The translations under genes and the position numbers were made by a program. Shown here one piece after another: positions 1,156-17,436 of a stretch of 20,709 nucleotides of DNA (position 1 is the first letter of the stretch; every line of letters starts with the position of its first letter). Source of the DNA: a virus; IMG/VR virus record IMGVR_UViG_3300001979_000008, positions 1 to 20,709 of that record; one strand, written 5' to 3'. The notes beneath the pieces were generated by a model that made no database searches, had not been told where the DNA came from, and was given only the letters and a program-made list of their open reading frames with translations.

Positions 1156-1180
1156 GAGAACGGCCGAAGTCTCCAGAAAA

Positions 1181-1228
1181 TAAATAGTTGGAAGCAAGCC
1201 CTGAGAGGCGAGCTACCAACTTTGGAGG
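1181..1228 (+). promoter_or_regulatory. TAAATA motif plus symmetric stem-loop ahead of tail tube gene
   Basis: TAAATA (1181-1186) leads into a stem. AGTTGG (1186-1191) pairs with CCAACT (1216-1221). Inside, AGC (1193-1195) pairs with GCT (1212-1214), and GCC (1198-1200) pairs with GGC (1207-1209), around loop CTGAGA (1201-1206). The internal loops are symmetric (A opposite A, AA opposite GA). The ribosome site GGAGG (1224-1228) begins just after the stem, 10 bases before ATG 1239. The pairing is visible in the sequence; a role in control of tube synthesis is inference. Confidence 0.55.
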
Positions 1229-1238
1229 CTAAAACATA

Positions 1239-1649
1239 ATGACAACCGCCGTAGAAACTCAGGGCACTGTCCTATCCATTGAAACCGCCACTGGCGTTTT
1301 CACCCCTGTCGCTAAGATCACCGACTTCTCCGCATTCAGCGGCTCGGCATCGGTCATCGATACAACCAACCTCGACAGCACTGCTAAAGAAAAGCTGATG
1401 GGCTTGCAGGATTTCGGTCAGGTATCCATCAACTTCCTTGTCATCCCAAATGATGCCGGACAGGTCGCGCTTGAAGCAGCCAAGGCTTCGCGCTCCCTCA
1501 AGAATTTCAAGCTACAGTTGAATGATACCGACAACACAACCTACGCTTTTTCCGGCTTCGTTATCAGCAAGCCACTGAACGGCGGTGTCGACGCAGCAGT
1601 CACCGGCTCGGCCACTATCGAAATCTCCGGCGACGTAACGGTGAGCTAA
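1239..1649 (+). CDS. Major tail tube protein (lambda gpV-like)
   Basis: The 136-residue protein has the look of a lambda-type tail tube protein (Phage_TTP_12-like). It starts with a strand 'TVLSIETATGVFTPVAKITDFSAFSG', then 'IDTTNLDSTAKEKLMGLQDFGQVSINF', the family pattern where IDTTnldSta-e---Gl-d-G-v---. It ends with a Ser/Thr/Gly-rich strand 'GSATIEISGDVTVS'. It would polymerise as stacked hexamers around the tape measure. Its stop overlaps the next start in TAATG (1647-1651), which suggests translational coupling to the chaperone. A TAAATA/stem-loop element lies upstream, reasonable for the most abundant tail protein. Confidence 0.85.
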   Translation: MTTAVETQGTVLSIETATGVFTPVAKITDFSAFSGSASVIDTTNLDSTAKEKLMGLQDFGQVSINFLVIPNDAGQVALEAAKASRSLKNFKLQLNDTDNTTYAFSGFVISKPLNGGVDAAVTGSATIEISGDVTVS

Positions 1650-2047
1650 TGGCAAAGCTGGCTACAAAATCGTTCTTGCTATCGCAAAAGCCACGTTCGA
1701 CCGAACTGTTCATCCCAGAGTGGAATGCAACAATTCGCTTGGAGGCGTTCAATGTCGAACGTCGCGTGGCTTTCGTGACGACCCTTCAAGACAATGCCAA
1801 AGCGGTTCAGGTTCACAACGATGATCCGAAAGCCAACCCATATGTCGAACCTCTTGACGAAGCGATGGTCGGTATCGTGTTCAGTGTGGTGGATGGCAAG
1901 GGCAATCTCATGTTCTCCCTTGACGATATTCCAGCACTAAAGAAGCTACCATACCAGCAAATCCAGAACATTTATCTGCATATGCTGTCCATGTCGCTTT
2001 CAGGCGGAAATATGCCGCAGCAGGTCGAGGCCGAAAAAAAAGATTGA
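1649..2047 (+). CDS. Tail assembly chaperone, short form (lambda gpG-like)
   Basis: The 132-residue protein is a tail assembly chaperone by position between tube and tape measure and by its small size and mixed charged composition (for example RLEAFNVERRVAFVTTLQDNAK). In lambda, G and the frameshift product GT bind the tape measure and recruit tube subunits. The gene ends in GAA AAA AAA GAT TGA, and the A run forms a -1 slippery heptamer at 2035-2041. The start ATG at 1649 overlaps the tube stop. The call depends strongly on synteny and on the frameshift signal; no catalytic motif is expected. Confidence 0.8.
   Translation: MAKLATKSFLLSQKPRSTELFIPEWNATIRLEAFNVERRVAFVTTLQDNAKAVQVHNDDPKANPYVEPLDEAMVGIVFSVVDGKGNLMFSLDDIPALKKLPYQQIQNIYLHMLSMSLSGGNMPQQVEAEKKD
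2035..2041 (+). promoter_or_regulatory. -1 programmed ribosomal frameshift site (A AAA AAA)
   Basis: The zero-frame codons are GAA(2033) AAA(2036) AAA(2039) GAT(2042) TGA(2045), so bases 2035-2041 form a perfect X-XXY-YYZ heptamer made of A. After a -1 slip, reading continues AGA TTG ATG GAT into the next open frame. Lambda-type G/GT genes use the same logic to make a minor fused chaperone at fixed ratio. I see only weak secondary structure just downstream. Confidence 0.8.
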
Positions 2048-2388
2048 TGGATAACCCGGAGAGGCTGTTTATCTGCCGACTAGCTTTGGCACTTGGCAAA
2101 AGCCTCTCCGAAGTCGCAGCCATGCCGTTGCCAGAGTTCACAACATGGGCCGCCTATTATGAGCTTGAGCCATGGGGCTGTCCAGTCGAGGACGAGCGTT
2201 CCAGAAACCAGCTCACGCTGTTCTACTCCGCTTATCGAGCTTCGTCCGATACTCCGATCCCTACATTCTATGACAGATGGAAGTTGGAAGAGAAGTCCGA
2301 ACCAGAACCGGAAAGCAATCTGCACAACAAGATCAAGGGCTACTTCAAGGCATATGCGGAACGCCAGAACAAGAAGCGCCCTGCCTAG
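2044..2388 (+). CDS. Tail assembly chaperone T domain, made as -1 frameshift fusion (lambda gpGT-like)
   Basis: This frame lies at -1 to the upstream chaperone and resembles the minor tail protein T family (PF06223-like): 'RLALALGKSLSEVAAMPLPEF' followed by 'WAAYYELEPWGCPVEDERS', where the family has a-fg-s--el-----e---w-aYy---PfG--ded-r. The C-terminal ~45 residues are charged and linker-like. A TTG (2044) or ATG (2047, overlapping the upstream TGA) could start it independently, but no clear Shine-Dalgarno is present. The main product is therefore probably the ~247-residue fusion made by slipping at 2035-2041. It would help load tube subunits on the tape measure. Confidence 0.8.
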   Translation: MMDNPERLFICRLALALGKSLSEVAAMPLPEFTTWAAYYELEPWGCPVEDERSRNQLTLFYSAYRASSDTPIPTFYDRWKLEEKSEPEPESNLHNKIKGYFKAYAERQNKKRPA

Positions 2389-2392
2389 CCAA

Positions 2393-2424
2393 TAAATACT
2401 CCGTAAGTCCTACGGAGTATTTTT
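2393..2424 (+). promoter_or_regulatory. TAAATA hairpin that buries the tape measure Shine-Dalgarno; also terminator-like
   Basis: AAATACTCCGTA (2394-2405) and TACGGAGTATTT (2411-2422) form a perfect 12-bp stem with a 5-base loop (2406-2410). The only ribosome site of the tape measure, GGAG (2414-2417), lies in the 3' arm, 7 bases before ATG 2425. A run of five T (2420-2424) follows, so the hairpin also has the form of an intrinsic terminator. The pairing is direct observation; attenuation of tape measure synthesis is inference. Confidence 0.7.
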
Positions 2425-4782
2425 ATGTCACAGTTCGGCAGTCTCTACGCCAGCCTTTCGCTTGAGAGCGCATCATTCTTGAGCGGCATGAAGAAGGCCG
2501 CCGATGAAAGCACCAAGACATCGCGCATCATTCAAGGCTCGATGGACAAGGCCAGCATTGCGGTCAAAGGTTTAGCTGCTGCCGTGGGCATAGATATGCT
2601 TGTTGGCCTTACGCAGAAGGCGCTCGATTTCAGCGATGCCATTGCGGATATGTCAGATCGAACGGGCGTCTCGACTAAGATGATCCAAGAGTTCCGTTAT
2701 GCTGCCCAGATGGCGGGTTCGGATTTCGAGACAGCAGATGCTGGCTTGGAAAAGTTCTCTAAGACCGTAGGTGACGCAGCGAATGGCAATGAAGCAGCGA
2801 TCAAGAAGCTGAACGAATACGGCGTCACCACTCTTGAGGTCGATAAGGCGGTTAAGCAAGCCGCCGACAGCATCAAGAAGATGGATAATCCGACCAAGCA
2901 GATGTCTGCCACGATGGACCTGTTTGGCAAAAAGGCCGGCACGTTGACGCAGACACTTGCTGGCGGCTCCGAAGGTCTGGAACTCCAAGCAAGGGCTGCT
3001 CGTGATCTCGGTATCGTGCTGGAAGACGGCATTATCCGCAATGCGGGTCAGGCGAACGATCAGCTTGATACCATGAAGATGATCCTCAGCGCGCAAATGG
3101 CAGCGAATATCTCGGCTAATGCTGGCGCAATCGCGGGATTTGCCAGCGGTATTTCGAGCGTGACATCGGCACTCATGAAGTTTTGGGCACAGAACCCCAG
3201 GACTGCAATGGGTATCATGGGCGCGATTGCCGGTGGTTTGGCCTCCGGTCCATGGGGTGCCGCCGCTGGTGCTGCTGGTGGTGTCTATCTTGGTGGCAAG
3301 ATGGATCAGGCCATGCAGGACGGCAACATGGACCTGCGCTTTCGTCAGCAGAAAATGCACGAAGCGAGGCGGAAATACTATGATGCGAAGGCAGCGGGCA
3401 ACATCGCGGATGGTGGACCGCTCGGCACTATTAGATATGACACTCAGGGCTTGTTGAAAGAATGGCAGCGCCAAGTTGGCCTGCTCAATAAGGCAGTTAC
3501 CGCCTCCAAAGCTGGTAACGCCGGTCAGGGCACTGCGCTTCCTACCCCAACTCCAAAGCCTACTCCCGCTAAGTCCGGACCATCGGCGGCAGAACTAGCG
3601 CAGAAGGAAGCTGATCGCCTAGCTGCATATCAGGCTGATGTTGCCCGCGCCAATGTCGATCTGGCCCGCGCTTCTTACATTGACCACGGGGACTACGCGC
3701 AAGGATATGCGTTGGAGCGCGAAGCTATCGACAAGGAATTGGCGCAGCGCAAGCAGGAAATCCTCAATGATGTAAAGACGCAGCAGAACACCAGCGGCAA
3801 ATACACTGAGGAAGAGGCAAACAGCCTCATTCAGCTACAGGAGAAGATCGCTCTCGCGGAGAAGAGTCAGATTAACAACGAGGAAGCTGTCCGCATTGAA
3901 GCTGAACTGCTCAAGAGCAAGGAAGCCGAACTATCTGATCAACTCGACATGCTGGGCATAGTTGGCGAAATGTCTAAGACAGCCCGCCAGCGCCGCGAGG
4001 TCGAACTTCGCACGCTCGAACTGCAAAAGAAGCGCGAAAAGCTGGAACTTGAAGCCGTTCTGTCAGCAACCAGCACGGCTTCGCCGGAAGAACGCGCAAC
4101 AGCGCAGCGCAGGCTTGACGGTTTGGATGCCAAATATGGCGCGCTCTCGGACAATGCGATCAAGAACACGATGGGGCCGCTGGAAAGCTATCTCGACAGC
4201 TTGCCCGGTAGCGCAGCAGAGGTTCAGGAAGCCCTAGAAGCCATCGGCACAGAGGGGCTTCAATCGATCAGCAGCGGCTTGGCCGACGCAATCGTGAACG
4301 CGAAGAATTTTGGTGATGTGTTCCTAGAGGTCGGGAAAAAGATCCTCGCCACCATCGCGGAAATCATCATCCAGCAGGCGTTCATTAAGCCCATTGGCGG
4401 CCTGCTCAGCGGCGCGCTATCGGGCATCGGTATCGGCGGTGGCGGTGCTGGCAGCGATATTGTGATGGGCGGGGCCTACAACAATTACATGGGCGCTCAT
4501 GCGAACGGTGGCCTTGTGTCATCGTCAGGTTGGAAGCTCGTCGGTGAGCGCGGCCCTGAACTGGCCTATCTCAACGGCGGGTCGAAAGTGATCTCACACA
4601 ATGTTCTCTCGAACATCAGCGGAAACGCTGGAGGGATGACGATCAATGTCGATGCCCGCGAGAGCCAGAATGAAGCCCGCACTCAGGAACTCGTGATGAA
4701 TGGTATCATTCAAGCCCTACCAATGATCAAGAAGCAAGCCAACAGCTACACAATGGATCAATTTGGTAGAGCCCGACTTTGA
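2425..4782 (+). CDS. Tail tape measure protein
   Basis: The 785-residue protein sets tail length and is held inside the tail tube before DNA ejection. Residues ~1-215 are helical with tape-measure-like text such as 'DLFGKKAGTLTQTLAGG'. Residues ~219-290 form a hydrophobic Ala/Gly-rich segment (likely membrane-active). Residues ~395-545 are strongly charged and probably coiled coil. The C-terminus at ~692-728 carries the common tape-measure ending 'HANGGLV... GERGPELAYLNGGSKVI'. At roughly 1.5 Angstrom per residue (known rule) the tail would be about 115-120 nm (inference). The start is fixed by the GGAG inside the hairpin upstream. The gene stops 8 bases before the end of the opposing ATPase gene. 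Confidence 0.92.
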   Translation: MSQFGSLYASLSLESASFLSGMKKAADESTKTSRIIQGSMDKASIAVKGLAAAVGIDMLVGLTQKALDFSDAIADMSDRTGVSTKMIQEFRYAAQMAGSDFETADAGLEKFSKTVGDAANGNEAAIKKLNEYGVTTLEVDKAVKQAADSIKKMDNPTKQMSATMDLFGKKAGTLTQTLAGGSEGLELQARAARDLGIVLEDGIIRNAGQANDQLDTMKMILSAQMAANISANAGAIAGFASGISSVTSALMKFWAQNPRTAMGIMGAIAGGLASGPWGAAAGAAGGVYLGGKMDQAMQDGNMDLRFRQQKMHEARRKYYDAKAAGNIADGGPLGTIRYDTQGLLKEWQRQVGLLNKAVTASKAGNAGQGTALPTPTPKPTPAKSGPSAAELAQKEADRLAAYQADVARANVDLARASYIDHGDYAQGYALEREAIDKELAQRKQEILNDVKTQQNTSGKYTEEEANSLIQLQEKIALAEKSQINNEEAVRIEAELLKSKEAELSDQLDMLGIVGEMSKTARQRREVELRTLELQKKREKLELEAVLSATSTASPEERATAQRRLDGLDAKYGALSDNAIKNTMGPLESYLDSLPGSAAEVQEALEAIGTEGLQSISSGLADAIVNAKNFGDVFLEVGKKILATIAEIIIQQAFIKPIGGLLSGALSGIGIGGGGAGSDIVMGGAYNNYMGAHANGGLVSSSGWKLVGERGPELAYLNGGSKVISHNVLSNISGNAGGMTINVDARESQNEARTQELVMNGIIQALPMIKKQANSYTMDQFGRARL

Positions 4783-4790
4783 TCACAATT

Positions 4791-6362
4791 CTAACGTATC
4801 ATTGGACCAAAAATAGGCATGAAATCGGCGCGAAACTGATTCCACCCCGCATGAGCAAAGATGCCGCAAAGAGCTTCGCGCACTGCCTCTTCGGTGCGCT
4901 GAGTGCGCTGTTCGAGGTATGTAATTAGCTCATCTTTAATATCTTTAGCAGCATTGCGGAGTCGACTTCCTTCCAACGTAGCGTCATACTTCCGAACGAT
5001 GTCAGCTATCCGTAGCTGATTGTCCCCGCATCGGTGCCGTAAGCTTTGCTCAAAAGCTGTCAAATTCCCCGCTATGTACCCGATCAAGCCGACTTCTGGA
5101 GTAAAAGGAAGGAATTTGATATCTTGTTCTAGTCGCTGAAACTTCGCCAGTTGACCGTGGTTATCATTCTGTCTCCAGTTGACAAGCGTCTCACTCGAAG
5201 CATCCTCATCCAACACTGCTTTCTGAAGCACTCGGTCGGGCAGCACCGAACGATTGCGTTCAAGAAAAGATACAACTTCTTTAAATCCACCGACCGGAAC
5301 GACCTTCGTTGTCGGACGCTCTGTGGGATCGGCAAATCTCTCGTCAGAGAACTTTTCGAAAAACGCCGTTAAGACATCACGTGCAAAGACATCTTCTACA
5401 TACAACATTATGTCGGGGAGAGTTTCTTCATCAGCGGCAATGTTGCCAATCGCATATGTTGGAAAACAACCGATAATCGGCTTCGTCTCGCCATCATCTT
5501 GTTTTTCTAGATAAATTATGCGCTGGCGCTCTATCGTTTTCAGCAACGTCACTGAATGAGTAGAAAATATTACCGTAAGCGACTTTTCACGAGCTTGCGC
5601 TTCAAGATATCGAAGCAGTTTCACCTGCGCTCTCGGATGAAGCGCCATTTCCAATTCATCGACGATTATCATACTGTTGTTGTTTACCTGCTTCAGCAAG
5701 CGCAACAGTTTCAGTACGCATAACTCTCCGAGGCTAAAGTGCTTTTCAGAGTGATAAGTTGTCGGATTTCCATCTAAAGCAAGAACGAAAGCATCGTTTC
5801 CAACTCCCCGGCTCAGATTGATTGTTCGGAGCATTGAAAACTTGTTCGTCTCAAATATCTCATTAGCCGCTTGGATGATTGTGCGGTCCGCAGCCCTGAT
5901 GTGCCGGGTTTCGAAATCCTCTGGCCTTGGAGTTATTCGTTCGGCAGTTGCGCCGATGTATGTCACAGACGCATAACCAAACCTCTGGAATAGATGAGAG
6001 TTGGTCCTCGGCCTTGGCGTCCAGCGCTCGCCTCGATAGGCATACTCAACGGTGTCCCCGTTAATTTCATATGTCACTGAGCCTTCCGAATGATTATCCA
6101 GCCGGTCTGACCTAAGTGACGAAGCGAAGTGAACCGGGAATGCGTTAGGATGCCCAATTCTTCGAAGGCACGCTAACAACGAAGTTTTTCCTGCCCCGTT
6201 CCCTGCCGTAAGCAACCAAACGCCGCGATCAGGTATGTCGAAGCGCAGCTTCTTGATGTTACGGAGATTGCTGATTTCAACAGTGCCAGCCATTTGATCG
6301 TTGAAGCCTGTGTTGGATAGAGGACAGGGGCTCATAGCCAGTCCTTCATGATCTTTCAACAT
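4791..6362 (-). CDS. OLD-family ATP-dependent nuclease (AAA ATPase + Toprim), probable prophage-borne defence gene
   Basis: The 523-residue protein starts at CAT 6360-6362 (minus-strand ATG) behind GGGGGAGGTGAGGTGG. The ATPase part has Walker A GNGAGKTS (residues ~54-61), an ABC-type signature-like FSLGE (~209-213), Walker B MIIVDELEMALHP (~231-243, D235/E236) and an H-loop STHS (~267-270). The second half has Toprim features: 'IMLYVED' with acidic E323/D324, 'VVPVGGF' (~355-360) and 'VLDEDA' with D385 and D387. This order is that of OLD nucleases, which include phage P2 Old and Gabija GajA. No helicase partner (GajB) or AriB-like partner is adjacent. The gene is antisense to the tail operon, more A+T-rich than its neighbours, and lies between the tape measure and distal tail genes. 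Transfer into the phage and expression from its own promoter in the lysogen are inference. Confidence 0.83.
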   Translation of the reverse strand: MLKDHEGLAMSPCPLSNTGFNDQMAGTVEISNLRNIKKLRFDIPDRGVWLLTAGNGAGKTSLLACLRRIGHPNAFPVHFASSLRSDRLDNHSEGSVTYEINGDTVEYAYRGERWTPRPRTNSHLFQRFGYASVTYIGATAERITPRPEDFETRHIRAADRTIIQAANEIFETNKFSMLRTINLSRGVGNDAFVLALDGNPTTYHSEKHFSLGELCVLKLLRLLKQVNNNSMIIVDELEMALHPRAQVKLLRYLEAQAREKSLTVIFSTHSVTLLKTIERQRIIYLEKQDDGETKPIIGCFPTYAIGNIAADEETLPDIMLYVEDVFARDVLTAFFEKFSDERFADPTERPTTKVVPVGGFKEVVSFLERNRSVLPDRVLQKAVLDEDASSETLVNWRQNDNHGQLAKFQRLEQDIKFLPFTPEVGLIGYIAGNLTAFEQSLRHRCGDNQLRIADIVRKYDATLEGSRLRNAAKDIKDELITYLEQRTQRTEEAVREALCGIFAHAGWNQFRADFMPIFGPMIR

Positions 6363-6413
6363 TCCACCTCACCTCCCCCACTAAATATCTAAAACGGGCG
6401 AGAGGCACCAATA
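6363..6413. promoter_or_regulatory. Divergent gap between OLD nuclease and distal tail gene, with TAAATA motif
   Basis: This 51-base gap holds the start regions of two opposite genes. On the minus strand GGAGGTGAGGTGG is the ribosome site of the nuclease, and TTGGTG with TATTTA 18 bases away is a weak promoter candidate for it. On the plus strand TAAATA lies at 6382-6387 and GAGAGG (6401-6406) is the ribosome site for ATG 6414. CCTC-CCC could pair with GGG-CGA-GAGG, but less convincingly than at the other TAAATA sites. Confidence 0.35.
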
Positions 6414-7016
6414 ATGACAACATATCCGATCAGCGGACCCCCAATCACTCCATCGACTGAAGATATAAAACTGGTCAACAATCAGGGCATCGCGCAGTCA
6501 CCCTTCAGCGGCCACGCTTCTATCGTGAACAACTTCTCACAGTGGCAAGTTCAGCTTTCCTTCCCCAACCAGCAGCGCGGCAGCAGCATAGCGAAACAGC
6601 AAATCGCTTGGGTCATGTCCTTAAACGGCACTATGGGCAGCTTTCTCTATCAGCCTCATGGCAGTGGTAAAGCGATCATCGGCAAGTCGATCTACAACGG
6701 TGCATATGCTGAAAGTAACGTGATCGCCGTTCAAGGCTGGACCGGCAGTGAGGCAACCGGACTGGAAGTGGGCGACTATTTCAGCCTCAACAATTCCCTT
6801 CACCAGATCACGGTCGTCCCCACCAACGCCAGCAGCGGACGCGCCAATATCGAATTCCAGCCTCCGCTTAGGAAGGATTATGCCGGTGGCGCGATTGTTG
6901 AGTTTGTCGCGCCAAAGGTCGAATTGCGCTTGTCATCCGGCGACCAATCCAACGGCTACAGTCAGGATGCGGAGGTCATGTACCTGCGCTCGCTGAGTTG
7001 CGTTCAGAAGCTGTAA
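6414..7016 (+). CDS. Putative distal tail protein
   Basis: The 200-residue protein follows the tape measure (apart from the inserted nuclease) and precedes a hub-like protein and a peptidase. This is the position of the distal tail protein in siphoviruses and of DUF2460 (gp12) in gene transfer agents. It is beta-rich, with 'WQVQLSFPNQQRGSSIAKQQIAWVMSLNGTMGSFLYQPHG', typical of a protein that replaces or measures an interval ('aw-a-f-aLrG--g-F'). The central 'GDYFSLNNSLHQITVV' resembles the 'GD-i-i-g--yrV' strand of small tail domains. I cannot assign a named family with certainty; the role is by synteny. Confidence 0.6.
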   Translation: MTTYPISGPPITPSTEDIKLVNNQGIAQSPFSGHASIVNNFSQWQVQLSFPNQQRGSSIAKQQIAWVMSLNGTMGSFLYQPHGSGKAIIGKSIYNGAYAESNVIAVQGWTGSEATGLEVGDYFSLNNSLHQITVVPTNASSGRANIEFQPPLRKDYAGGAIVEFVAPKVELRLSSGDQSNGYSQDAEVMYLRSLSCVQKL

Positions 7017-7025
7017 GGAGGCAAC

Positions 7026-7646
7026 ATGCGCGACGGTATTACAGGGCCATGGCTCGACGCATTGGAAGCCGAAGGCATCCGCACCGCCATTATGGGCTTC
7101 CTCGATTTCAAAACAGAACCGGCACGGCTTTGGACAGGCTGGACGGCGCTCCAGCCTATGGGCAGCGGCGACATTTACCTCGACAATTATGTGTTCGATC
7201 CGATTGCCGAAGGCATCCCGATCCAAATTGGCGAGAACGCTTTCACCTATCAGGGATCGGAACAGCTATCCTTGGCGCTGGCAGTGCCACAGACGGCTCC
7301 CGACTCCCTTGTCGCCGCCTCCCTCGACAGCACCGAATATAAGGGACGCAAAGCCATCCTCTGGCGCGCTCTCATGATTTCCGCACCAAACGCCAACACT
7401 CCGGCCGTTTGGGCGTTCAGGCGCATTCGCAGCGGGATTATGGACAAGCTCTCCGTGTCCTATGACGGTCAGCAGCGCCTTTTCACCCTCACCATCGAAA
7501 GCCATTCGGCGTCGATCACGAACGCCAGTGCCTCTACCTACCTCGATCAGCCGCTATTCGATCCCGACGATACCAGCCAAGCCTATGCTGTCAGCATCGC
7601 CAACGATCCCCGTGTGCCTGGCCGCCTTGCAACGGGAGAAAATTGA
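7026..7646 (+). CDS. Putative tail hub protein (GTA gp13-like position)
   Basis: The 206-residue protein starts at ATG 7026 behind a strong AAGGAGG (7015-7021). It contains 'LDFKTEPARLWTGW' and 'YQGSEQLSLALAVPQ', features I associate with a small family of tail proteins in alphaproteobacterial prophages. A short 'G-i---a----YDGQQRLFTLTIES' strand pair lies near the end. It lies between the distal tail protein and the NlpC/P60-like gene, the place of the DUF2163 hub protein in gene transfer agents. The stop overlaps the next start in TGATG (7644-7648). Function rests on position. Confidence 0.55.
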   Translation: MRDGITGPWLDALEAEGIRTAIMGFLDFKTEPARLWTGWTALQPMGSGDIYLDNYVFDPIAEGIPIQIGENAFTYQGSEQLSLALAVPQTAPDSLVAASLDSTEYKGRKAILWRALMISAPNANTPAVWAFRRIRSGIMDKLSVSYDGQQRLFTLTIESHSASITNASASTYLDQPLFDPDDTSQAYAVSIANDPRVPGRLATGEN

Positions 7647-8074
7647 TGTTCCAGCGCACCAAATACTGGCCTGATTCCCTTTCGACCTATCTCGACCGCG
7701 TGAGCGAATATCGCTTCGATTGGGGCGCCACCAAAGCCGATAGCCATGACTGCGCGACATTCATTTGCGGAGCGATCAAGGCGCAGACCGGCGAAGATAT
7801 TACCGGCGATTTTGCGGGCAAATATACGAGTTGGAAAGAAGCCGGAAAATGGCTGATCGATAATGGCTACAGGTCGTTCTACGATTGCGTCACTCAACGC
7901 CTTGGCGAGTCCGTTCATGCAAGTCAGGCAAGGCGAGGTGACATTGTGGGCCGACAAGAAAATGGCCGCTTCTATCTCGGCGTCTGCGTTGGAAAGTTCA
8001 GCTACTTCCTAGATGACAACGGACTTGTCCCTTGGCCGTCAATGGACTGCGATGCTTGTTGGCGCATCGGCTAA
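7646..8074 (+). CDS. DUF6950 / NlpC-P60-like tail tip peptidase
   Basis: The 142-residue protein has the DUF6950 arrangement. An 'RFDWGATKADSHDCATFICGAI' segment has C36 (counting from ATG 7646) as the likely nucleophile. A mid-region 'GKYTSWKEAGKWLIDNGY' follows, then a 'RRGDIVGRQENGRFYLGVCVG' strand pair in the place of the catalytic His strand, and an ending 'CDACWRIG'. Related cell-wall peptidases sit in the tail tip and help it cross the envelope. Here the expected His position is not obvious, so activity is uncertain. ATG 7646 was chosen over TTG 7643 because of GGGAG 8 bases upstream and the TGATG coupling with the previous gene. Confidence 0.75.
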   Translation: MFQRTKYWPDSLSTYLDRVSEYRFDWGATKADSHDCATFICGAIKAQTGEDITGDFAGKYTSWKEAGKWLIDNGYRSFYDCVTQRLGESVHASQARRGDIVGRQENGRFYLGVCVGKFSYFLDDNGLVPWPSMDCDACWRIG

Positions 8075-8092
8075 GTAAGAACGCCTAAACGG

Positions 8093-8122
8093 TAAATACC
8101 TCAAAATAATTGAGGTATTGAA
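8093..8122 (+). promoter_or_regulatory. TAAATA hairpin that buries the Shine-Dalgarno of the J-like gene
   Basis: AATACCTCAA (8095-8104) pairs with TTGAGGTATT (8110-8119), a perfect 10-bp stem with a 5-base loop AATAA. TAAATA occupies 8093-8098. The ribosome site GAGG (8112-8115) lies in the 3' arm, exactly 7 bases before the GTG start at 8123. Both stem size and spacing mirror the element before the tape measure, but the inner stem sequence is different. A role in translational gating is inference. Confidence 0.65.
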
Positions 8123-10213
8123 GTGGGCAAAATCATTAAGTTCGTGGCGATTGTGGCTCTTGCCGCAGTCGCCATGGTTGCTTTCAGTTATCTAGCACCG
8201 GCACTTTTCTCAGCGTTCGGTGGTTCGGTCGCGGCCGGTATGACTGCATCCTCTGCTCTCGCGGCAGCAGGAACTAGCGCAGCGGCTATCGCGGCTAAAG
8301 TGGTCGCAGGCATGATCGTCACGCTGGGCATGTCGCTGGCTACTCGAATGATCATGGGCAAGCCCAAGACACTCGGCTCTGCTCTCAGCTTCAACATCAC
8401 GACCGACCCGACAGCGCCGCGCAAGATCGTCTTCGGACGAACAGCGGCAGGCACAGACGAACGTTTCCATGAGAAGGTGAAGCGCGACAGTTGGGCCTAC
8501 ATGACCGAACTCATTGCAGCCAATTCGAAAAGTGCTTTCTGGAACCAACAACCTCGCGTGACTGCTATTCTGAAGAAGGGCGACTATCTTCACAGGGTCA
8601 TCGCTCTCGCAAGCCATCGCGTTCACAAGGTATCGAAGGTCTATCTAGAGGACGAACTGTCCTATCTCAATGGCAGCACCACCGGCAAATATGATGACAA
8701 AAGCGGCCTCGTAATTGGCGCGGTTGAAGAAGGTGACACTGAGAACGCGGAAAAGTTCGGCAGCGGCGATTATTGGAAAAACACTGCTACATTTACCGGC
8801 TGCGCCTATCTCAAAATGATCTTCCGTCTCAGCACGGATAATTACCCTGACGGCCTGCCAACCCGCATTACGACAATCGTTGACGGCTGCCCTGTCTACG
8901 ATCCGCGACTCGATAGCACGGTCGGCGGTGTTGGCTCTCACCGCGCCAATAATCAGGACACCTGGTCCTTTATAAGCGGGTCGGAGGATATTGGCCGCAA
9001 CCCTGCTCTGGCTCTGCTGACTTACCTCATCGGCTGGAAGATCAATGGCCGCCTTGCTTGGGGCATGGGCATTCCAGTGGATCGCATCGACCTCGGCAAT
9101 TTCATGACCTACGCCAATATGTGCGAGGAACCGGTTGTCACCAATGGCGGAACCACGGTCAATCGCTACTTCTGCGATTGCCTCCTATCGACCGCCGATA
9201 CCCACGAAGCGAATATCAACATCATTTCGGCGGCCATGGGCACGGCAAAGCTGGTCGATACCGCTGGCATGTATCAGCTTATCGGCGGCTATGACGATCT
9301 CGACGGCCCGACGATCACGTTCACAAGGGACGATCTGATCGGCCAGTATGAATACACGCCAGACAACCTATCCCTCAAAGATACCTTCAACATCGCTCGT
9401 GGTCGCTTCCCTGATCCTGAGAACCTGTACCAGTTGAACGATTGGGGGCAGATCGAAATTGCCCCGCTTGAGGATAATATTCCTCGCCCGCAGGTCTTCG
9501 ATTTCGCGGCTGTGACGCGATACGAGCAAGCGCAGCGCATCGCCAAGCAGAACCTCGTCAGGAACAAATACTCCGCGACATTCTCATCCGTGTTCGGCCC
9601 GAAGGCATTTGCGGTTCAGGTCGGTTCGCTGGTCCGCATGGTCGTCCCTGAATTGGGCTGGGTCACGAATGGCAAACTGTTCCGCGTAATCAGTCAAAGC
9701 GAGACGATCGACCTCGCTTTCAACATGACGCTCCAAGAGGAAGCCGCGCAAATCTACGCATGGGACGATGACGAGACGAAAGACCTGCCTCCGGTCGTCA
9801 AAGTTCCGGCTTATGACCCGAATGAGAGCATCGGCGTGGAAGGGCTGACAGCTTCAACGCGAACCATCACCAACAGCAACGGCGCACAGGTCAGCCAGAT
9901 TGACGTTAGCTGGATCGCGCCCGACGCAGGCGTTCAGGCCATCCAAATCCAGTTCCGTGAGCAGAATGGCGACACATGGAATACCGCTACTGATCGTTTC
10001 AGCCATGAGGCGGAAATCTTCTCATTTTCCGCAATCGCAGGCGGCGTGAACCACATCATTAGAGCGCGCTTCCTCATGTATAGCGGCATGTGGGGAGACT
10101 GGACTGAGACGCAAGTGGACAGCGCAAGGGATAGCTATGCTTCAAGCGTCGTCGGCTATCTGACGAATGAGAATGTCTCGTTCCCGTCCGACGCATCCGG
10201 CAACATCACATAA
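8123..10213 (+). CDS. J-like tail tip attachment protein (N-terminal and FnIII part)
   Basis: The 696-residue protein starts at GTG 8123. The first ~78 residues are a hydrophobic Ala/Gly-rich region, typical of alphaproteobacterial tip proteins (fusion of lambda I-like and J-like parts). The middle has the tail-protein-3-like features 'PRKIVFGRTAAGTDERFHEKV', 'GRLAWGMGIPVDRIDLGNFMTYANMCEEPV' and 'ISAAMGTAKLVDTAGMYQLIGG', the pattern of the J-type tail domain that forms the tip ring. Residues ~570-670 look like one fibronectin type III domain. Lambda J is ~1130 residues; here the protein stops early at a single TAA (10211-10213), and the next gene, in the same frame, carries the DUF1983 part that normally lies at the C-terminus of J. 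Confidence 0.85.
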   Translation: MGKIIKFVAIVALAAVAMVAFSYLAPALFSAFGGSVAAGMTASSALAAAGTSAAAIAAKVVAGMIVTLGMSLATRMIMGKPKTLGSALSFNITTDPTAPRKIVFGRTAAGTDERFHEKVKRDSWAYMTELIAANSKSAFWNQQPRVTAILKKGDYLHRVIALASHRVHKVSKVYLEDELSYLNGSTTGKYDDKSGLVIGAVEEGDTENAEKFGSGDYWKNTATFTGCAYLKMIFRLSTDNYPDGLPTRITTIVDGCPVYDPRLDSTVGGVGSHRANNQDTWSFISGSEDIGRNPALALLTYLIGWKINGRLAWGMGIPVDRIDLGNFMTYANMCEEPVVTNGGTTVNRYFCDCLLSTADTHEANINIISAAMGTAKLVDTAGMYQLIGGYDDLDGPTITFTRDDLIGQYEYTPDNLSLKDTFNIARGRFPDPENLYQLNDWGQIEIAPLEDNIPRPQVFDFAAVTRYEQAQRIAKQNLVRNKYSATFSSVFGPKAFAVQVGSLVRMVVPELGWVTNGKLFRVISQSETIDLAFNMTLQEEAAQIYAWDDDETKDLPPVVKVPAYDPNESIGVEGLTASTRTITNSNGAQVSQIDVSWIAPDAGVQAIQIQFREQNGDTWNTATDRFSHEAEIFSFSAIAGGVNHIIRARFLMYSGMWGDWTETQVDSARDSYASSVVGYLTNENVSFPSDASGNIT

Positions 10214-10239
10214 ATATTGGGAGTTCCAATATTAGGTGA
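10211..10239 (+). promoter_or_regulatory. TAAATA hairpin between the two J-like reading frames
   Basis: AATATTGG (10213-10220) pairs with CCAATATT (10226-10233), an 8-bp stem with a 5-base loop GAGTT. TAAATA at 10211-10216 includes the TAA stop of the upstream gene. The ribosome site AGGTGA (10234-10239) abuts the 3' arm and serves ATG 10244. Geometry matches the elements at 2393 and 8093 (5-base loop, AATA/TATT base of the stem). Confidence 0.6.
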
Positions 10240-10243
10240 CAGC

Positions 10244-11884
10244 ATGACTTCCCTCGATACGTTTAGCGGCCAGTTCAAAATCTACGACAATGCGGTTGAT
10301 GTTACGACCGGCAATGGTGCAACTTATGAAGTTGCCTATCAAGAGGGTTGCTCTGTCGCCATCAATAGCAGCAATGGCCAATATGGCGTTACGGCTGTTG
10401 CGAATGACAATGCGAATGCGACATTTCGCGCCTACTATAATGGCTATGAAATCTACAAGACTTTCACCATTGCAAAGGCTCGCGCTACTGACGGCACGAG
10501 CAAATATGTTGAATTAGCGACAAGCCATTATTTCTATGCCTATGACGCGAACAATCAGGTTCTACCGCAAACCACTACCCTGACGCTGACAAAGTATAAT
10601 CTTTCTTCAACAACACAGTGGCGGTTGAAGAGGGTTGATAACACGGCTCTCGCAGAGGGAACCGCTGCTGCTCTGCTGACAGCCGGGAAGATCAGTAGTT
10701 CAGCTAACGCGAACAGCATAACCCTTGAAGCCGCGCTGTTTGACGATCTGTGTCGGTCGAATGGCGTTTCGGCGCTCGTCATTGAGGCTGTCGTGGCAAA
10801 TGGCACCGCGTTCAGCACTGACCGGGTTACGCTCTGTCAGATGCTCCGGCGTTCCCGCATCGCATGGGACAGCGTTACCGACCCATACGGCACAAAGCCG
10901 GAAGACAATGCCACTGTTGGCGCACCAGAGGGCACAATGATCGGCCTTCGTCCGGTTAGCGAGGTGCTTGCCGATCTGGAGTTCAATGCCGACTCCATGC
11001 TGGAACAGGTCTTTCGCGTCGATAACATGGAAACGGTCTATGATGCCCGCACGTTTGTCGAGGGACAGCCGGTAGGCACGTTTGTTCTGAACGAACGAAC
11101 CCAGCGCGAAACGGACATCGCCGCGATCAACACAACGCTCGATCTCATCGGCGCAAAAAGCTCTGATGGAACGGCCTTCATTCTAGATGCGGCAACAGTT
11201 CAAAGCCAGCCGGGTAAAACCCTCGCGTCAACACTCGATGAACTAAGCGCAGCGACGAGCGAGCATGAAGCCTCGATCATCAACTTGAGCGAAGTTCTCA
11301 TTTCGTCCGATGGCGTCACTGCAAAAGCAGTCCATCAGATCAACGTTGACGGGCATATTACCGGCGTCGTGAATACGAATGATGGGACCGTTGGTGACTA
11401 TGCGATTGTCACGGACGTATTCAGGCTTATCGATCCGAATGAGGGAACGTCAATCACTCCTTTTGCTTACGCCGATGGCGTGATCAAGATGACCAATGTT
11501 GAAGTCGATACGCTAAAAGTGGGAACAGGCGGCACGGTCGGCGCTCCATCCATTAGTTCCGCAACATTAGCAGTCGCCGGAACGGGGACGAGCAACTGGC
11601 TCACCATATTGTCGCAGTCGATAACGCTGGCCAGTCCCGGCACAATCTTTGCCAATGTGAGCGTTGCTCTTGGCTTTCCAGATGGTGACAAGACTTGGAA
11701 TACAAAGCTGCGGATCAACGGACAGCAAGTCTTCCACATCGGCGGCATGAAGACAGCAGACAGCGTTCCTATGATGGGTGCACTACAGCTTGCAGCAGGC
11801 ACCTATACCGTTGATGTTATCTTCGCTGCGGAGACTTCCGTTACAGCCAATAGCCGTACGCTCTTCTCCATGACGATCTACTGA
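10244..11884 (+). CDS. Central tail fibre protein with DUF1983-like domain (C-terminal part of a split J)
   Basis: I chose ATG 10244 because AGGTGA lies just upstream; a TTG at 10217 would start inside the hairpin loop region and is less likely. The ~546-residue protein has N-terminal Ig-like beta sequence (residues ~1-190) and a DUF1983-like domain at ~285-420. That domain has 'ERTQRETDIAAINTTLDLI', then 'FRLIDPNEGTSITPFAYADGVIKMTNVEVDTL', the well-known 'F-i-------pF-v-dG-v-i--A-I--L' pattern. A C-terminal beta sandwich (~440-546, 'SQSITLASPGTIFANVSVALG') could bind the cell surface. It is in the same frame as the J-like gene, separated by one stop codon, so a fused form of about 1250 residues by readthrough is formally possible. 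Confidence 0.72.
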   Translation: MTSLDTFSGQFKIYDNAVDVTTGNGATYEVAYQEGCSVAINSSNGQYGVTAVANDNANATFRAYYNGYEIYKTFTIAKARATDGTSKYVELATSHYFYAYDANNQVLPQTTTLTLTKYNLSSTTQWRLKRVDNTALAEGTAAALLTAGKISSSANANSITLEAALFDDLCRSNGVSALVIEAVVANGTAFSTDRVTLCQMLRRSRIAWDSVTDPYGTKPEDNATVGAPEGTMIGLRPVSEVLADLEFNADSMLEQVFRVDNMETVYDARTFVEGQPVGTFVLNERTQRETDIAAINTTLDLIGAKSSDGTAFILDAATVQSQPGKTLASTLDELSAATSEHEASIINLSEVLISSDGVTAKAVHQINVDGHITGVVNTNDGTVGDYAIVTDVFRLIDPNEGTSITPFAYADGVIKMTNVEVDTLKVGTGGTVGAPSISSATLAVAGTGTSNWLTILSQSITLASPGTIFANVSVALGFPDGDKTWNTKLRINGQQVFHIGGMKTADSVPMMGALQLAAGTYTVDVIFAAETSVTANSRTLFSMTIY

Positions 11885-11894
11885 TAAGTAGCGT

Positions 11895-12497
11895 ATGTCC
11901 AGAACACTCGATCAGCTTGATACCGATCTAGCGGCGCTCGAAACAACCGTTGGCGCGGAGTTGTCGCCTAGCCGCGCTGACCTCACCAACCAGATGTCCG
12001 AACTGCTCGATAAATGGCAGGCGCGAGAAACCGAATTTCGCACATGGATGACCGGCACGATCAACGGCGGTCCCAATGGTGACGGCTTTTACCCTCTCAC
12101 CGATTCCACTGGCTATGCCCAGCTCGCGGCCTGTCCCGCGAAACTGAGGAATATTTCACAGGTCATTATCCAGCGGATCACCCCTACGTCCTCAAGCCTG
12201 TTCGTGGATGCTTTTGCGGGGCCGGTGGCGCATATCACGCTAAACACGGCTAGCCTGACCCTCACAGTGGGCGTTACTACCGTCGATACAGCCCATGAGC
12301 ATCGGCTGCGCCTGTATCTCACGCAGGACGGATCAGGGGGCCGGGACATTAGCTGGCCCTCGAATATCATGTGGAACCAGCAGCGCGAACCCATCTTGTC
12401 GGTGACGCCGGGTTACACCGATATTATCGACCTATCGAGCATCGACGGCGGCGTGAGTTGGTTCGGCATCTTTGCCGGGGTGGCGTTCACCTCATGA
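11895..12497 (+). CDS. Small tail fibre-associated protein, unknown function
   Basis: The 200-residue protein has an N-terminal helical segment with heptad character (residues ~3-48, 'LDQLDTDLAALETTV') and then a beta-rich domain with 'GPVAHITLNTASLTLTVG' and 'DISWPSNIMWNQQREPIL'. Trp-containing '-isWPsni-W' strands of this kind are frequent in phage appendage and tail-spike accessory domains. The start ATG 11895 has no convincing Shine-Dalgarno and follows a 5-bp hairpin (CTACT-GATA-AGTAG) overlapping the upstream stop. Its end overlaps the next start in ATGA (12494-12497). Fibre association is inferred from position. Confidence 0.5.
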   Translation: MSRTLDQLDTDLAALETTVGAELSPSRADLTNQMSELLDKWQARETEFRTWMTGTINGGPNGDGFYPLTDSTGYAQLAACPAKLRNISQVIIQRITPTSSSLFVDAFAGPVAHITLNTASLTLTVGVTTVDTAHEHRLRLYLTQDGSGGRDISWPSNIMWNQQREPILSVTPGYTDIIDLSSIDGGVSWFGIFAGVAFTS

Positions 12498-15352
12498 CCG
12501 GCACATTCTCGAACGACATCGTTAGCATGATTATCAGCCTCCACAATTTCGTGGAGCGATATACCGGCGATGCTGCCGTGGGCGAGGACGCCAATTACCT
12601 CGTCAACAATGCCGGGGTGGTCAACAACTCGCTGCACTATGAAAGCGGTCGCGGCAGCTATCTGCCTAGCAATGCGGCTACCAGCGAAAGCCAAGTGCTG
12701 CTCGCACTGGGCTATATCCGCGCCTATGAAGCAACCGGCATCCCGATATTCAAAGACCGTGCCGTCCGGTTCACTAACGCCTATCTCGAAAACTACTTTC
12801 CGGCATATTCGCTGCCGATCTCCGTCGGTGAATGGCGGCATCATTGGGTTATCAACGGCAAATACCCGTTCAAGGTGCTGGGGCCGGTCGATACGCGAGA
12901 TTATCAGCAGTCCGGTTCTTTCGATCTTGTCGTGGATTTCGAAGATGGGATCGGCTTCATCCCGCACGGCTCCCCGAACTTTGGCGAACTGACTGCCCGC
13001 GTCTATTTCGCCTACGGCCCTGTCGCTACCGCAAAGCTGCTCTGGAAAAACGTCTTTGCCGATGTGCTGGGCGATACCGGCGAGAAATATGCGGTGGATT
13101 GTTTCATCGATAGCCGATTGATGAAGATGGATGCCAATGGCGTTGAACTCGGCATCTTGGAAAGCGAGACAGCCGGAAAAATCAAGCTTGTCGAGCCGTT
13201 CACCGGACAACTCAAGGTCGCATCTGCTGCCCGTACAGGAGCCGTCATTGCGCGCAACAATGGCTTCGATGCTTGGCCTATGTGGCGCAAGCTGGGCTAT
13301 GGCGAGTGTGCGAGCGCGATGGACGTTGAACTCTGGCACATCGAACTGTTCAAGGCGATGTACGACAGCACCGGCAACACGGACTATCTGCGCGCCTTCA
13401 ACTCCGCTGCCTATTCATTGGATGCCGCAACACGGCTGGAACCGGAAGCCTACTACTTCAAGAAGAACTCTACTTCTTCCAAGCCTTTCAAACATGGCAT
13501 CGCTTATTGGTCGCTCAGCAATAGTTCGATGACCGCTTATGTAGGCGTTGATCGCGGTTACAGCACAATCATGAAATATCGCGAGACCGGCTCTGACGTT
13601 GCGGAACTTGAAGTCGCACAGACCGCGATCATCAATCGGGTGACGCCCGAAACCGTCCTTAACTGCGAAATGCTGTTGAACAGCCCCAACACCTTCTGCG
13701 ATCTGACCATCACTGTTAGCGATGAACTGGGAGCGGAGCCGCAAACGTTCAGCGAAATCCTGCTTGCCGATGACAGCCTGAGTTCCGTGCCCATTCGCGC
13801 ATTCAAGTTCAAAACCTTTCGCCGAAAAAAGAAAAGCGACGGCACCAGCTATCTGACCGCCGATCAAGCCGAGTTCATGCCCAATTCGGGCGCGGTAGCG
13901 ACGAAAGAGATGGGCTATTTCAATGATCGCCTCGTCGGTTTTGCAGGCATTTCCCTGCCATCGCCGGAAGCATATTGCGTCGTAGGGTTCTGGACCGTCA
14001 CATCAGGATCGATCGGCCTCGACACGCTCACATATCGCCTCAAGTCCGGTCGCTGCGCTATCACTGTTCAGGATGCCGATGGATGGATTTGGGGGAAGGA
14101 ATTAGCGGCAGGCACAGGCGGCTGGAGCCAATACACTCTCGGCGCGGGGGATCTCACGCCATGGCCCTACCAGAACAACACAGGGACGCCGCCGAGCGCG
14201 TTTCCATCCGGCACCAGCTTCAACAGCTTCAGTTTCGCGCCGATCCCTGAAACCGGGCCGGCCTCCATCGACGTATATTGCTATGGCGAGGAGCCGACGA
14301 ACTTTGATCTTCCCGAAGCGATGCTGACGGAGGTGAAGCTGAAAATGAAAAGCCGCGCCGCGATCACCGCGAAGTTCGGGGACATTTATGTCTCGAACAG
14401 CTTGCCGATCAGCTACCGTTACAGCCCCGGCGTCGTGCCATTCACGACTGATAGGAACGGCAAGGAAGGCACGAAATTTTGGCGCGGCACTCCGTATGTC
14501 GCGTACCAATATCCCTCTGTCTGGGCGATGCTGGGAAAGCTGGATCATGTCAGCCAGGTCATAGAATTCTACAGAGACAGCCAGGACGATTATTACAGCA
14601 AAACCGGCCTGCGCGGCCCGTTCTCGCAGGTCTATATCTGGCCTAAGTGGGATAACGTCGCATACGGGCAGGCAGAGGGCTTCTCAGCAACCGGCCCTGA
14701 CCCGAACACCTATTGGGGCGGCTTCCAAGCACGCTCTTTCAACGGCGCTGCTAGCCTATTGCTGCAACTGGACAGGGACGGCAATGCGATCCCGACCGCG
14801 CTTTATGAGGTCGTTGACGACTACGTGGCGTTCCTTGCAGATTTCTTGCGTGATAACGGCAATCAGCCACCGACATATTTTGCTCAGGATGGTTCGTCGC
14901 TGCCCAGTACCTCCTATGACGAGCCGCATATTGCTGCGCTCCATATCAACGCCCTATCGGCGCTGATCGAAGCCGGTCATTCGACCGCCGACATTTTTGA
15001 GGCGCGTGAACGCAGCCTCAGCTACCTCTACGCCCTGTTCAGCAAGAGCGGGGAAATGTCGGGCAGCTTTTCCCCAAGCCCCTCTACGAGATTGTTTTAC
15101 GGGTTCTGGGTAGGCGAAATTCTCAGGGCGCTATCCTCGTCAGTCCTGATGGAGGATCAGCAGTTGCGAACGCCGTCATCTGTCATCGTAGAACCGGAGC
15201 AGATGGAATTTGAAGAGGAAACCTTTGTCACCCTCGAAACCGGGGAAGTGCTGGCGTTCGACATGCCGGTTATCATGCCAGTGATTGAAATGGAATTTGC
15301 CGACGCAGTAACAGTGGCCACGGAAACCGGAGACGTCCTCGCCTTTGAGTAA
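12494..15352 (+). CDS. Large putative tail fibre / glycosidase-like protein
   Basis: Translation most likely starts at ATG 12494 in an ATGA overlap, not further upstream where the frame merely overlaps the previous gene. The ~952-residue product begins with Met-Thr-Gly-Thr-Phe. Both ends contain alternating amphipathic helices: residues ~55-110 with 'LGYIRAYEATGIPIFKDRAVRFTNAYLENYF', and ~770-890 with 'VVDDYVAFLADFLRDNGNQPPTYF' and 'HINALSALIEAG'. These recall alpha/alpha toroid (six-hairpin glycosidase-like) folds of depolymerases. The middle is beta-rich. The last ~60 residues hold two copies of an 'MEF-----V-TETG-VLAF' motif. A role in recognising or cutting surface polysaccharide is inference; no catalytic residues can be assigned. 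Confidence 0.6.
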   Translation: MTGTFSNDIVSMIISLHNFVERYTGDAAVGEDANYLVNNAGVVNNSLHYESGRGSYLPSNAATSESQVLLALGYIRAYEATGIPIFKDRAVRFTNAYLENYFPAYSLPISVGEWRHHWVINGKYPFKVLGPVDTRDYQQSGSFDLVVDFEDGIGFIPHGSPNFGELTARVYFAYGPVATAKLLWKNVFADVLGDTGEKYAVDCFIDSRLMKMDANGVELGILESETAGKIKLVEPFTGQLKVASAARTGAVIARNNGFDAWPMWRKLGYGECASAMDVELWHIELFKAMYDSTGNTDYLRAFNSAAYSLDAATRLEPEAYYFKKNSTSSKPFKHGIAYWSLSNSSMTAYVGVDRGYSTIMKYRETGSDVAELEVAQTAIINRVTPETVLNCEMLLNSPNTFCDLTITVSDELGAEPQTFSEILLADDSLSSVPIRAFKFKTFRRKKKSDGTSYLTADQAEFMPNSGAVATKEMGYFNDRLVGFAGISLPSPEAYCVVGFWTVTSGSIGLDTLTYRLKSGRCAITVQDADGWIWGKELAAGTGGWSQYTLGAGDLTPWPYQNNTGTPPSAFPSGTSFNSFSFAPIPETGPASIDVYCYGEEPTNFDLPEAMLTEVKLKMKSRAAITAKFGDIYVSNSLPISYRYSPGVVPFTTDRNGKEGTKFWRGTPYVAYQYPSVWAMLGKLDHVSQVIEFYRDSQDDYYSKTGLRGPFSQVYIWPKWDNVAYGQAEGFSATGPDPNTYWGGFQARSFNGAASLLLQLDRDGNAIPTALYEVVDDYVAFLADFLRDNGNQPPTYFAQDGSSLPSTSYDEPHIAALHINALSALIEAGHSTADIFEARERSLSYLYALFSKSGEMSGSFSPSPSTRLFYGFWVGEILRALSSSVLMEDQQLRTPSSVIVEPEQMEFEEETFVTLETGEVLAFDMPVIMPVIEMEFADAVTVATETGDVLAFE

Positions 15353-15375
15353 ATAACGATAACAAAGGAGGCGCC
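15342..15375 (+). promoter_or_regulatory. TAAATA in the loop of a stem covering the last fibre gene's Shine-Dalgarno
   Basis: CCTTTG (15342-15347), at the end of the large fibre gene, pairs with CAAAGG (15363-15368). The loop contains the TAA stop and TAAATA (15350-15355). The 3' arm is part of the ribosome site AAAGGAGG (15364-15371) of ATG 15376. The motif position differs from the other sites (in the loop rather than the stem base), but the outcome, a covered Shine-Dalgarno, is the same. Significance is uncertain with a 6-bp stem. Confidence 0.4.
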
Positions 15376-16692: not shown

Positions 16693-17436
16693 CTAGGCCG
16701 GAAGCGCAAAGCATTGATGAAGATATGCGCTATTAAAGTCGCCTGCATCCTGCAAATCTTGCCAGTTTGTGATGGTCACTGATTTGCTGCCCAAGCTGAT
16801 GAGCCCGTCTTCGCGCAGGCGTTGAAGCGTGCGGTTCACATGAACATTTGTGAGGCCGGTGGCATCACCGACCTGTTCCTGAGTCATCGGCCACTCGAAA
16901 CGCGGCCCTTCGCAAATTCCCGCCGCCTCCTGCCGCAGCGCCAATTCGCAGAGCAGATGCGAAATCCGTTGGCGTGCATCCCGCTGGCCAACATTGAGTA
17001 TCCATTCACGAAACACCGAAGCGTCCACCAGTGTGTCGCGCCAGAAGGCCTGCGTGACTGCGGGATACGCCGCCGCTACATCCAGGATTGCCTCCTGCGA
17101 TATATAGGCCAGTTCAACGCGGGTAAGCGCCTGCACATTGTGGTCCGCTACTTCGAGCAGACTGTTCTGCAGGTCCACGAGGTCGCCTTGCAGATGGATT
17201 GAGAGAATCTGCCTATCCCCATCACCCGTCATCTTGCTTCGATAAGCGAAGCCAGAAAGGAGCACGATGCAACTATCGGCTCTGTCACCTTCTCGAACTA
17301 AATAGGTGCCAGGGTCGCGAGTAGCCAAGCGATAAGGCAGGGCGAGTAAAGCGGCGGTGTCAGCGGGGCCGAGCGGCGAACGGCTCGCCAGCTTGTGAAC
17401 CATGGGTGCGAGCACGGGAGAAGTCGGGGTATGCAT
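16693..17436 (-). CDS. Crp/Fnr family transcription regulator
   Basis: The product has an N-terminal cyclic-nucleotide-binding-like beta barrel at residues ~15-130 ('RDPGTYLVREGDRADSCIVLLSGFAYRSKMTGDGDRQILSIHLQGDLVDLQN') and a C-terminal winged helix (HTH_Crp_2-like) at ~170-235 with 'MTQEQVGDATGLTNVHVNRTLQRLREDGLISL'. The Fnr-type N-terminal cysteine cluster is absent, so it does not look like an oxygen-sensing [4Fe-4S] protein. I prefer ATG at 17436 (247 residues), because GGAGGG lies just before it inside the longer alternative that starts at 17451. Relatives in sphingomonads are numerous; targets cannot be told from here. A divergent 287-base region separates it from the second DUF6894 gene. 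Confidence 0.87.
   Translation of the reverse strand: MHTPTSPVLAPMVHKLASRSPLGPADTAALLALPYRLATRDPGTYLVREGDRADSCIVLLSGFAYRSKMTGDGDRQILSIHLQGDLVDLQNSLLEVADHNVQALTRVELAYISQEAILDVAAAYPAVTQAFWRDTLVDASVFREWILNVGQRDARQRISHLLCELALRQEAAGICEGPRFEWPMTQEQVGDATGLTNVHVNRTLQRLREDGLISLGSKSVTITNWQDLQDAGDFNSAYLHQCFALPA

Follow-up and report, generated by a model that had tools for sequence, protein, structure and literature searches.

In a group of sphingomonad prophages and one unrelated virus, the hexamer TAAATA and a hairpin that usually hides the ribosome-binding site precede nearly every separately started virion gene, an arrangement that is a convention rather than an inheritance. This arrangement probably makes expression of each virion gene dependent on a late start signal of its own. 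Our preferred explanation, to which we assign a probability of roughly 60%, is that TAAATA is the −10-like core of a late promoter lacking a −35 element and that the hairpin acts as a translational lock. Below, "the window" denotes the whole 20,709-nt stretch of viral DNA that was analyzed.

TAAATA at late gene starts

All six plus-strand copies of TAAATA predicted for the gaps of the tail module are present (Table 1), and the single further plus-strand copy expected in the window lies at 17299; one minus-strand copy lies at 885. These eight copies compare with 3.6 expected from shuffled sequence, and 2 of 100 shuffles contained at least eight. Upstream of the gapped late genes of the window, TAAATA occurs at 5 of 10 crude starts versus 0.38 expected, a count reached in none of 500 shuffles; its opposite-strand form, TATTTA, occurs at none of these 10 starts. 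The proposal that the elements mark gene starts was correct.

Absence of the motif from related phages would have counted against the original prediction; the opposite was found, with TAAATA at every homologous gap examined. We compared the gaps that lead into six genes (major tail, tape measure, distal tail, J-like, 10244, and 15376), and the motif is kept in 7 to 13 homologous viral-contig gaps per gene, also where the sequence farther upstream is different. Relatives of the window carry 9 to 17 copies per 28- to 39-kb contig; with few exceptions, these are on the coding strand, in the gap ahead of a gene. In late-gene gaps, 50 copies lie on the plus strand versus 1 on the minus strand, and one-mismatch variants are hardly enriched. 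The suggested comparison of gap counts with shuffled sequence gave a clear result: shuffled gaps never reach the observed TAAATA counts in four phages.

Gapped late genes carry the motif at 13 of 14 starts in G003 (1.33 expected), and gapped genes do so at 8 of 13 in G005 (0.61 expected) and 5 of 8 in L133 (0.25 expected); coupled genes, which overlap or abut a neighbor, carry it at 0 of 22 starts in these three phages together and at 1 of 5 in the window. The presence of the motif at gapped late genes and its absence from coupled genes define a rule: separately started late genes carry TAAATA. L133 is a podovirus contig, obtained from a pattern scan, whose eight copies all lie on the same strand. 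The head and tail families of G003 (terminase phrog_979, portal phrog_145, capsid phrog_247, and tape measure phrog_2335) are not those of the window group, with which it has mainly tail-tip genes in common. The same layout in phages with nonhomologous head and tail genes, and in an unrelated podovirus, argues for a convention and not for shared descent.

The scan that yielded L133, as well as T4-like cyanophages, required a hairpin, so hairpins at those pattern hits were selected; a second pattern scan returned further members of the window group. Among the T4-like cyanophage contigs, L187 (position 582), L196 (minus strand), and L130 (position 7875) have a AATAAATACCTGAGTATCAGGTATT box in a hairpin, the hairpin being pattern-selected; AATAAATACCTGAGTATCAGGTATT precedes a gene whose product starts MAQLFGFSIK and is probably the portal.

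J-like prophages that belong to the same family but are more distant lack the motif. Sphingobium sp. TCM1 and S. bisphenolivorans YL23 carry prophages of the G007 and G008 types. In two Sphingobium genomes, the inspected regions around WWTAAATA held no such gene-start elements except at the prophage site, and two named phages show no comparable strand bias: phiKM1 has 0 copies, and Piluca has 21 versus 15 by strand. As the original prediction had stated, no description of these elements in sphingomonad phages was found in the part of the literature that our search covered.

Table 1. Positions of the elements and loci discussed (window coordinates unless a contig is named)
Feature	Position	Strand	Gene start	TAAATA	Details
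Major tail protein gene element	1169-1238	+	1239	1181-1186	Anti-Shine-Dalgarno arm GTCTCCA 1169-1175 pairs with Shine-Dalgarno arm TGGAGGC 1223-1229
Tape measure gene element	2393-2424	+	2425	2393	Stem 2394-2422; MFE z −3.27
ATPase-like gene inside tail operon	4791-6362	−			Upstream of distal tail element
Distal tail gene element	6370-6413	+	6414	6382-6387	Shine-Dalgarno GAGAGG retained
J-like gene element	8093-8122	+	8123	8093	Stem 8095-8119
Element of gene starting 10244	10211-10243	+	10244	10211	Stem 10213-10233
Variant element	11885-11894	+	11895		TAAGTA 11885-11890, 4 nt before ATG
Element of gene starting 15376	15342-15375	+	15376	15350-15355	Shine-Dalgarno AAAGGAGG
A3 protein	L075:4278-4676	−			
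A3 protein	L075:3648-4169	−			
A3 protein	L071:4-384	−			
Small-RNA-like locus	L078:15675-15791	−			
Small-RNA-like locus	L264:768-875				
Small-RNA-like locus	L329:2181-2290				
Small-RNA-like locus	L315:2764-2875				
Small-RNA-like locus	L074:18004-18114	−			
Conserved TATAAATA	G003 28727	−			Oriented contig
Conserved TATAAATA	G005 32879	−			Oriented contig
Conserved TATAAATA	G006 30950	−			Oriented contig
Conserved TATAAATA	G007 29850	−			Oriented contig
Conserved TATAAATA	G008 27495	−			Oriented contig

Hairpins over ribosome-binding sites

The three perfect stems described earlier, each with a 5-base loop, proved exact: 12 bp at the tape measure gene, 10 bp at the J-like gene, and 8 bp at the 10244 gene. 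In shuffled windows, 12-bp stems number ∼0.02 and 10-bp stems ∼0.17, so the two longer stems are far above chance. In the tape measure element the 5′ arm contains TAAATA and the 3′ arm contains GGAG, and in the J-like element the Shine-Dalgarno sequence GAGG sits in the 3′ arm. At the major tail gene, TAAATA is followed by a conserved nested stem-loop (MFE z = −3.94; 93% of cells paired, covariation absent). The distal tail element of the window has lost most of its 5′ anti-Shine-Dalgarno arm beside the ATPase-like gene; in several relatives, TAAATA lies in the loop of an intact 8- to 10-bp anti-Shine-Dalgarno/Shine-Dalgarno stem, and 89.8% of cells are paired across relatives.

At 10211, where the TAA of the motif is also the stop codon of the J-like gene, a Shine-Dalgarno-like AGGTGA lies directly 3′ of the stem; this element is weak on its own (MFE z = −0.27). 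The 15350 motif lies in a loop, as claimed, between CCTTT (15342-15346) and AAAGG (15364-15368), and its TAA terminates the reading frame of the previous gene (MFE z = −0.8). In orthologues of the 11895 gene from other phages, TAAATA takes the place of the TAAGTA variant, likewise 4 nt before ATG. Relatives differ in sequence just upstream of the distal tail, J-like, and 11895 genes, a pattern suggestive of preferred insertion points.

We folded 35 elements, each gene family or type being represented once. Their mean z is −2.03 (Fisher p = 1e-15), compared to −0.54 for 70 control starts (p = 9e-6); for L133 elements 1306 and 4432 the start position used was off by one base, which left the result materially unchanged. 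Some elements (e.g., 10211, G003 6507, and G003 15340) fold no better than shuffles. It had also been proposed that the fold is kept while its sequence changes, which is correct. The hairpin in the J gap covaries: 98.6% of pair cells are kept in seven sequences, both partners have changed in two of the pairs, and the G-U pairs fit coding-strand RNA only. No other gap shows clear covariation, and the major tail and distal tail stems are conserved without it. A search of 119,884 bases against Rfam gave 0 matches.

Stem sequences vary from gene to gene, and the hairpin usually hides the ribosome-binding site. We found that 85% of the pairing of this site is with bases no farther downstream than position TAAATA+6. 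Its accessibility is 0.45 in the full RNA, 0.68 in RNA starting 5 nt after TAAATA, and 0.52 when the 5′ part is shuffled; when only the accessibility of the Shine-Dalgarno sequence is scored, many elements do not individually reach significance. The geometry is thus that of T4 gene e, namely a helix that covers the Shine-Dalgarno sequence or AUG and takes its 5′ strand from the TAAATA box or from bases preceding it.

In L073, L075, L077, and L081, a leader of ∼100 nt follows TAAATA upstream of the major capsid gene; it includes a near-invariant block, CTTGCTCAAGTGAGCCGCTACAGGGG(C/T)GATCCTGTCAATAGGTCACA, with no Rfam match.

Start-signal features and competing explanations

Spacing between TAAATA and the start codon falls into two classes, either 4 to 5 nt or at least 12 nt. 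Genes of the first class (terS, terL, and the 18146 and 14225 genes) always start with ATG and mostly have a weak or absent Shine-Dalgarno sequence; this spacing implies that their messages would be leaderless. Genes of the second class usually have a Shine-Dalgarno sequence. The logo of the 35 elements reads (R)ATAAATA, with the core fixed by the search: A precedes TAAATA in 26 of 35 and T precedes that A in only 2 of 35, the four following bases are A/T at 62 of 140 positions, which is not above the 47% background, and no column from −50 to −3 exceeds 0.3 bits, so there is no −35 element. In five phages, TAAATA directly precedes an ORF-less segment of ∼90 nt composed of a diverged stem-loop, the sequence CUCCUU(A/G), which is complementary to the Shine-Dalgarno sequence, and an intrinsic terminator. 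One such segment has a fold z of −7.3, and the fifth of these small-RNA-like loci was found only after its prediction from prophage position. Bimodal spacing, ORF-less segments, and logo favor a transcription signal. The placement of TAAATA within the RNA also varies (loop at the distal tail, 15376, and portal genes; stem arm at the tape measure and J-like genes; internal loop at the major tail gene; flanks elsewhere), as expected for a signal at the DNA level.

Together with the pairing geometry of the ribosome-binding site, these features lead to the model of a promoter inside a lock, as in T4 gene e and I-TevI. Read-through RNA would carry the 5′ arm of the hairpin, which would pair with the ribosome-binding site and block translation; RNA starting ∼4 to 6 nt after TAAATA would lack this arm and leave the site free, and where ATG follows at 4 to 5 nt the message would begin with the start codon. 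Because the arm would block read-through RNA and be absent from promoter-born RNA, late genes would be expressed only from their own promoters, when a putative late transcription factor acts at each of them, and independently of read-through from prophage surroundings or inserted genes. Placement, strand bias, conservation, structure, and geometry of the elements are established here; we infer the transcription start at TAAATA, the function of the lock in the cell, and the existence of the late factor.

The chief rival to this promoter reading, though an unlikely one in our estimation, is that UAAAUA is bound by an RNA-binding regulator, encoded by phage or host, that acts on the Shine-Dalgarno-hiding hairpin of a polycistronic late message by opening or holding it, in the manner of Mu Com or T4 RegA, but regulon-wide. 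The coding-strand nature of the J-family hairpin, with its G-U pairs, would suit such a regulator, as would a family of small basic proteins (A3) that occurs as one or two minus-strand copies and, on contigs long enough to include the region, is found next to the late operon of both phage types. However, UAAAUA lacks a single RNA context, being found in loops, stem arms, flanks, and internal loops, and the motif also stands before the ORF-less, terminator-ended segment and 4 to 5 nt before ATG codons whose Shine-Dalgarno sequence is weak or absent. A3 itself has no recognizable fold: an AlphaFold model (pLDDT 79) gave no reliable structural match, with weak PURA-like rows only. Of 398 genomes of the family that were searched, 19 contain A3 relatives, and A3 proteins also lie near many loci without the motif.

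The pairing geometry would equally suit an endonuclease that cuts the long late transcript at UAAAUA, since a 5′ arm at or before the site would be removed by cutting there and each ribosome-binding site freed. We consider such processing improbable. RNase E prefers RN-WUU, which UAAAUA does not match, a strict 6-base core is unusual for such endonucleases, and the ORF-less segment is explained without processing. More improbable still is that motif and hairpin form an AU-rich standby or S1 landing site, or a stop-reinitiation signal, with no trans factor: at 10211 and 15350 the upstream gene does end in the TAA of the motif, but its stop lies elsewhere at 2393, 8093, and 1181, the core is strict whereas standby sites need only be unpaired, and G005, G006, and G007 have copies preceding no gene. 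Chance stems and chance motifs, the latter commoner in AT-rich gaps and reaching the observed count in those 2 of 100 whole-window shuffles, have a negligible probability and are ruled out by the gap shuffles, with an opposite-strand count of 0 in the same four phages, by the fold z-scores, and by conservation at homologous gaps.

As for the factor that the promoter reading calls for, a search for Sigma70_r2 gave no match in seven phage records (G003 to G009), which are possibly fragments, and gp55 is highly diverged. A2, a family of 306 aa, is common to G003 to G006 and absent from G007 to G009, G001, and G002; A2 and A3 are leads only as late-factor candidates. A fuller version of the model, which we hold tentatively and at slightly under even odds, is that the whole late regulon consists of individually locked minimal promoters served by a putative non-sigma-like phage factor, with the same promoter driving the CUCCUU anti-Shine-Dalgarno small RNA.

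Five oriented contigs also have a conserved minus-strand TATAAATA (Table 1), followed by a hairpin leader and a terminator-like stem with a T run and then by a minus-strand gene; judged from its sequence, this looks like an attenuated early promoter.

If the promoter-in-lock model is correct, small temperate phages would organize their late expression by a design known from a few T4 genes, with each late gene silent in read-through RNA and turned on only from its own start signal. This would explain how differing inserted genes, in either orientation, can lie just upstream of a tail-operon element; it would also predict late promoters and leaderless messages for sphingomonad phages and point to a new late factor.

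Comparison with known phage systems

The original prediction likened the elements to the start-associated sequences (SAS/ESAS) of cluster K mycobacteriophages, which are found at nonstructural genes and whose ESAS repeats do not support RNA pairing (PMC3203893; also PMC12699233). Like SAS/ESAS, the elements described here number about a dozen copies per genome, lie on one strand, and are found at gene starts with longer gaps, in genes of different families. The likeness ends there. The 13-bp SAS, GGGATAGGAGCCC, located 3 to 7 bp before starts, has 0 matches in the window with up to 2 mismatches allowed; our elements precede terminase, portal, capsid, and tail genes, not the nonstructural half typical of SAS; and the 17-bp inverted repeats of ESAS share a consensus, whereas the stems here differ between genes and the J stem, which covaries, pairs as RNA. 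We therefore reject identity: SAS/ESAS is a fair comparison of layout, not of membership.

In phage Mu, Com activates translation of mom, and a stem-loop hides this one late gene start. The elements here likewise place a stem-loop over phage late gene starts; in Mu, one gene is concerned.

The resemblance of TAAATA to T4-type late promoters, also part of the original prediction, held up: the core is ATAAATA, without −35 conservation, before late genes. T4 late promoters likewise lack −35 conservation (PMC2988020); the box is TATAAATA in T4 and KVP40 and NATAAATA in cyanophages (PMC2984593), approximately one helical turn before the start. Unlike T4-type promoters, the first base here is A or G rather than T, no AT-rich stretch lies downstream of TAAATA, and sigma region 2 gave no match in G003 to G009. 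T4 genes e, soc, and 49 and I-TevI have hairpins that hide the Shine-Dalgarno sequence, and two of them, e and I-TevI, have a late promoter within or close to the 5′ side of that hairpin (PMC3014915). The elements described here share with these two a Shine-Dalgarno sequence or AUG in a helix of the read-through RNA and a TATAAATA-like box within or close to its 5′ strand, such that RNA started at the box would lack that strand. In T4, locks occur in few genes; here candidate locks occur in most separately started virion genes, and in non-T4 temperate siphophages and a podovirus in which, unlike T4, no gp55-like factor was detected.
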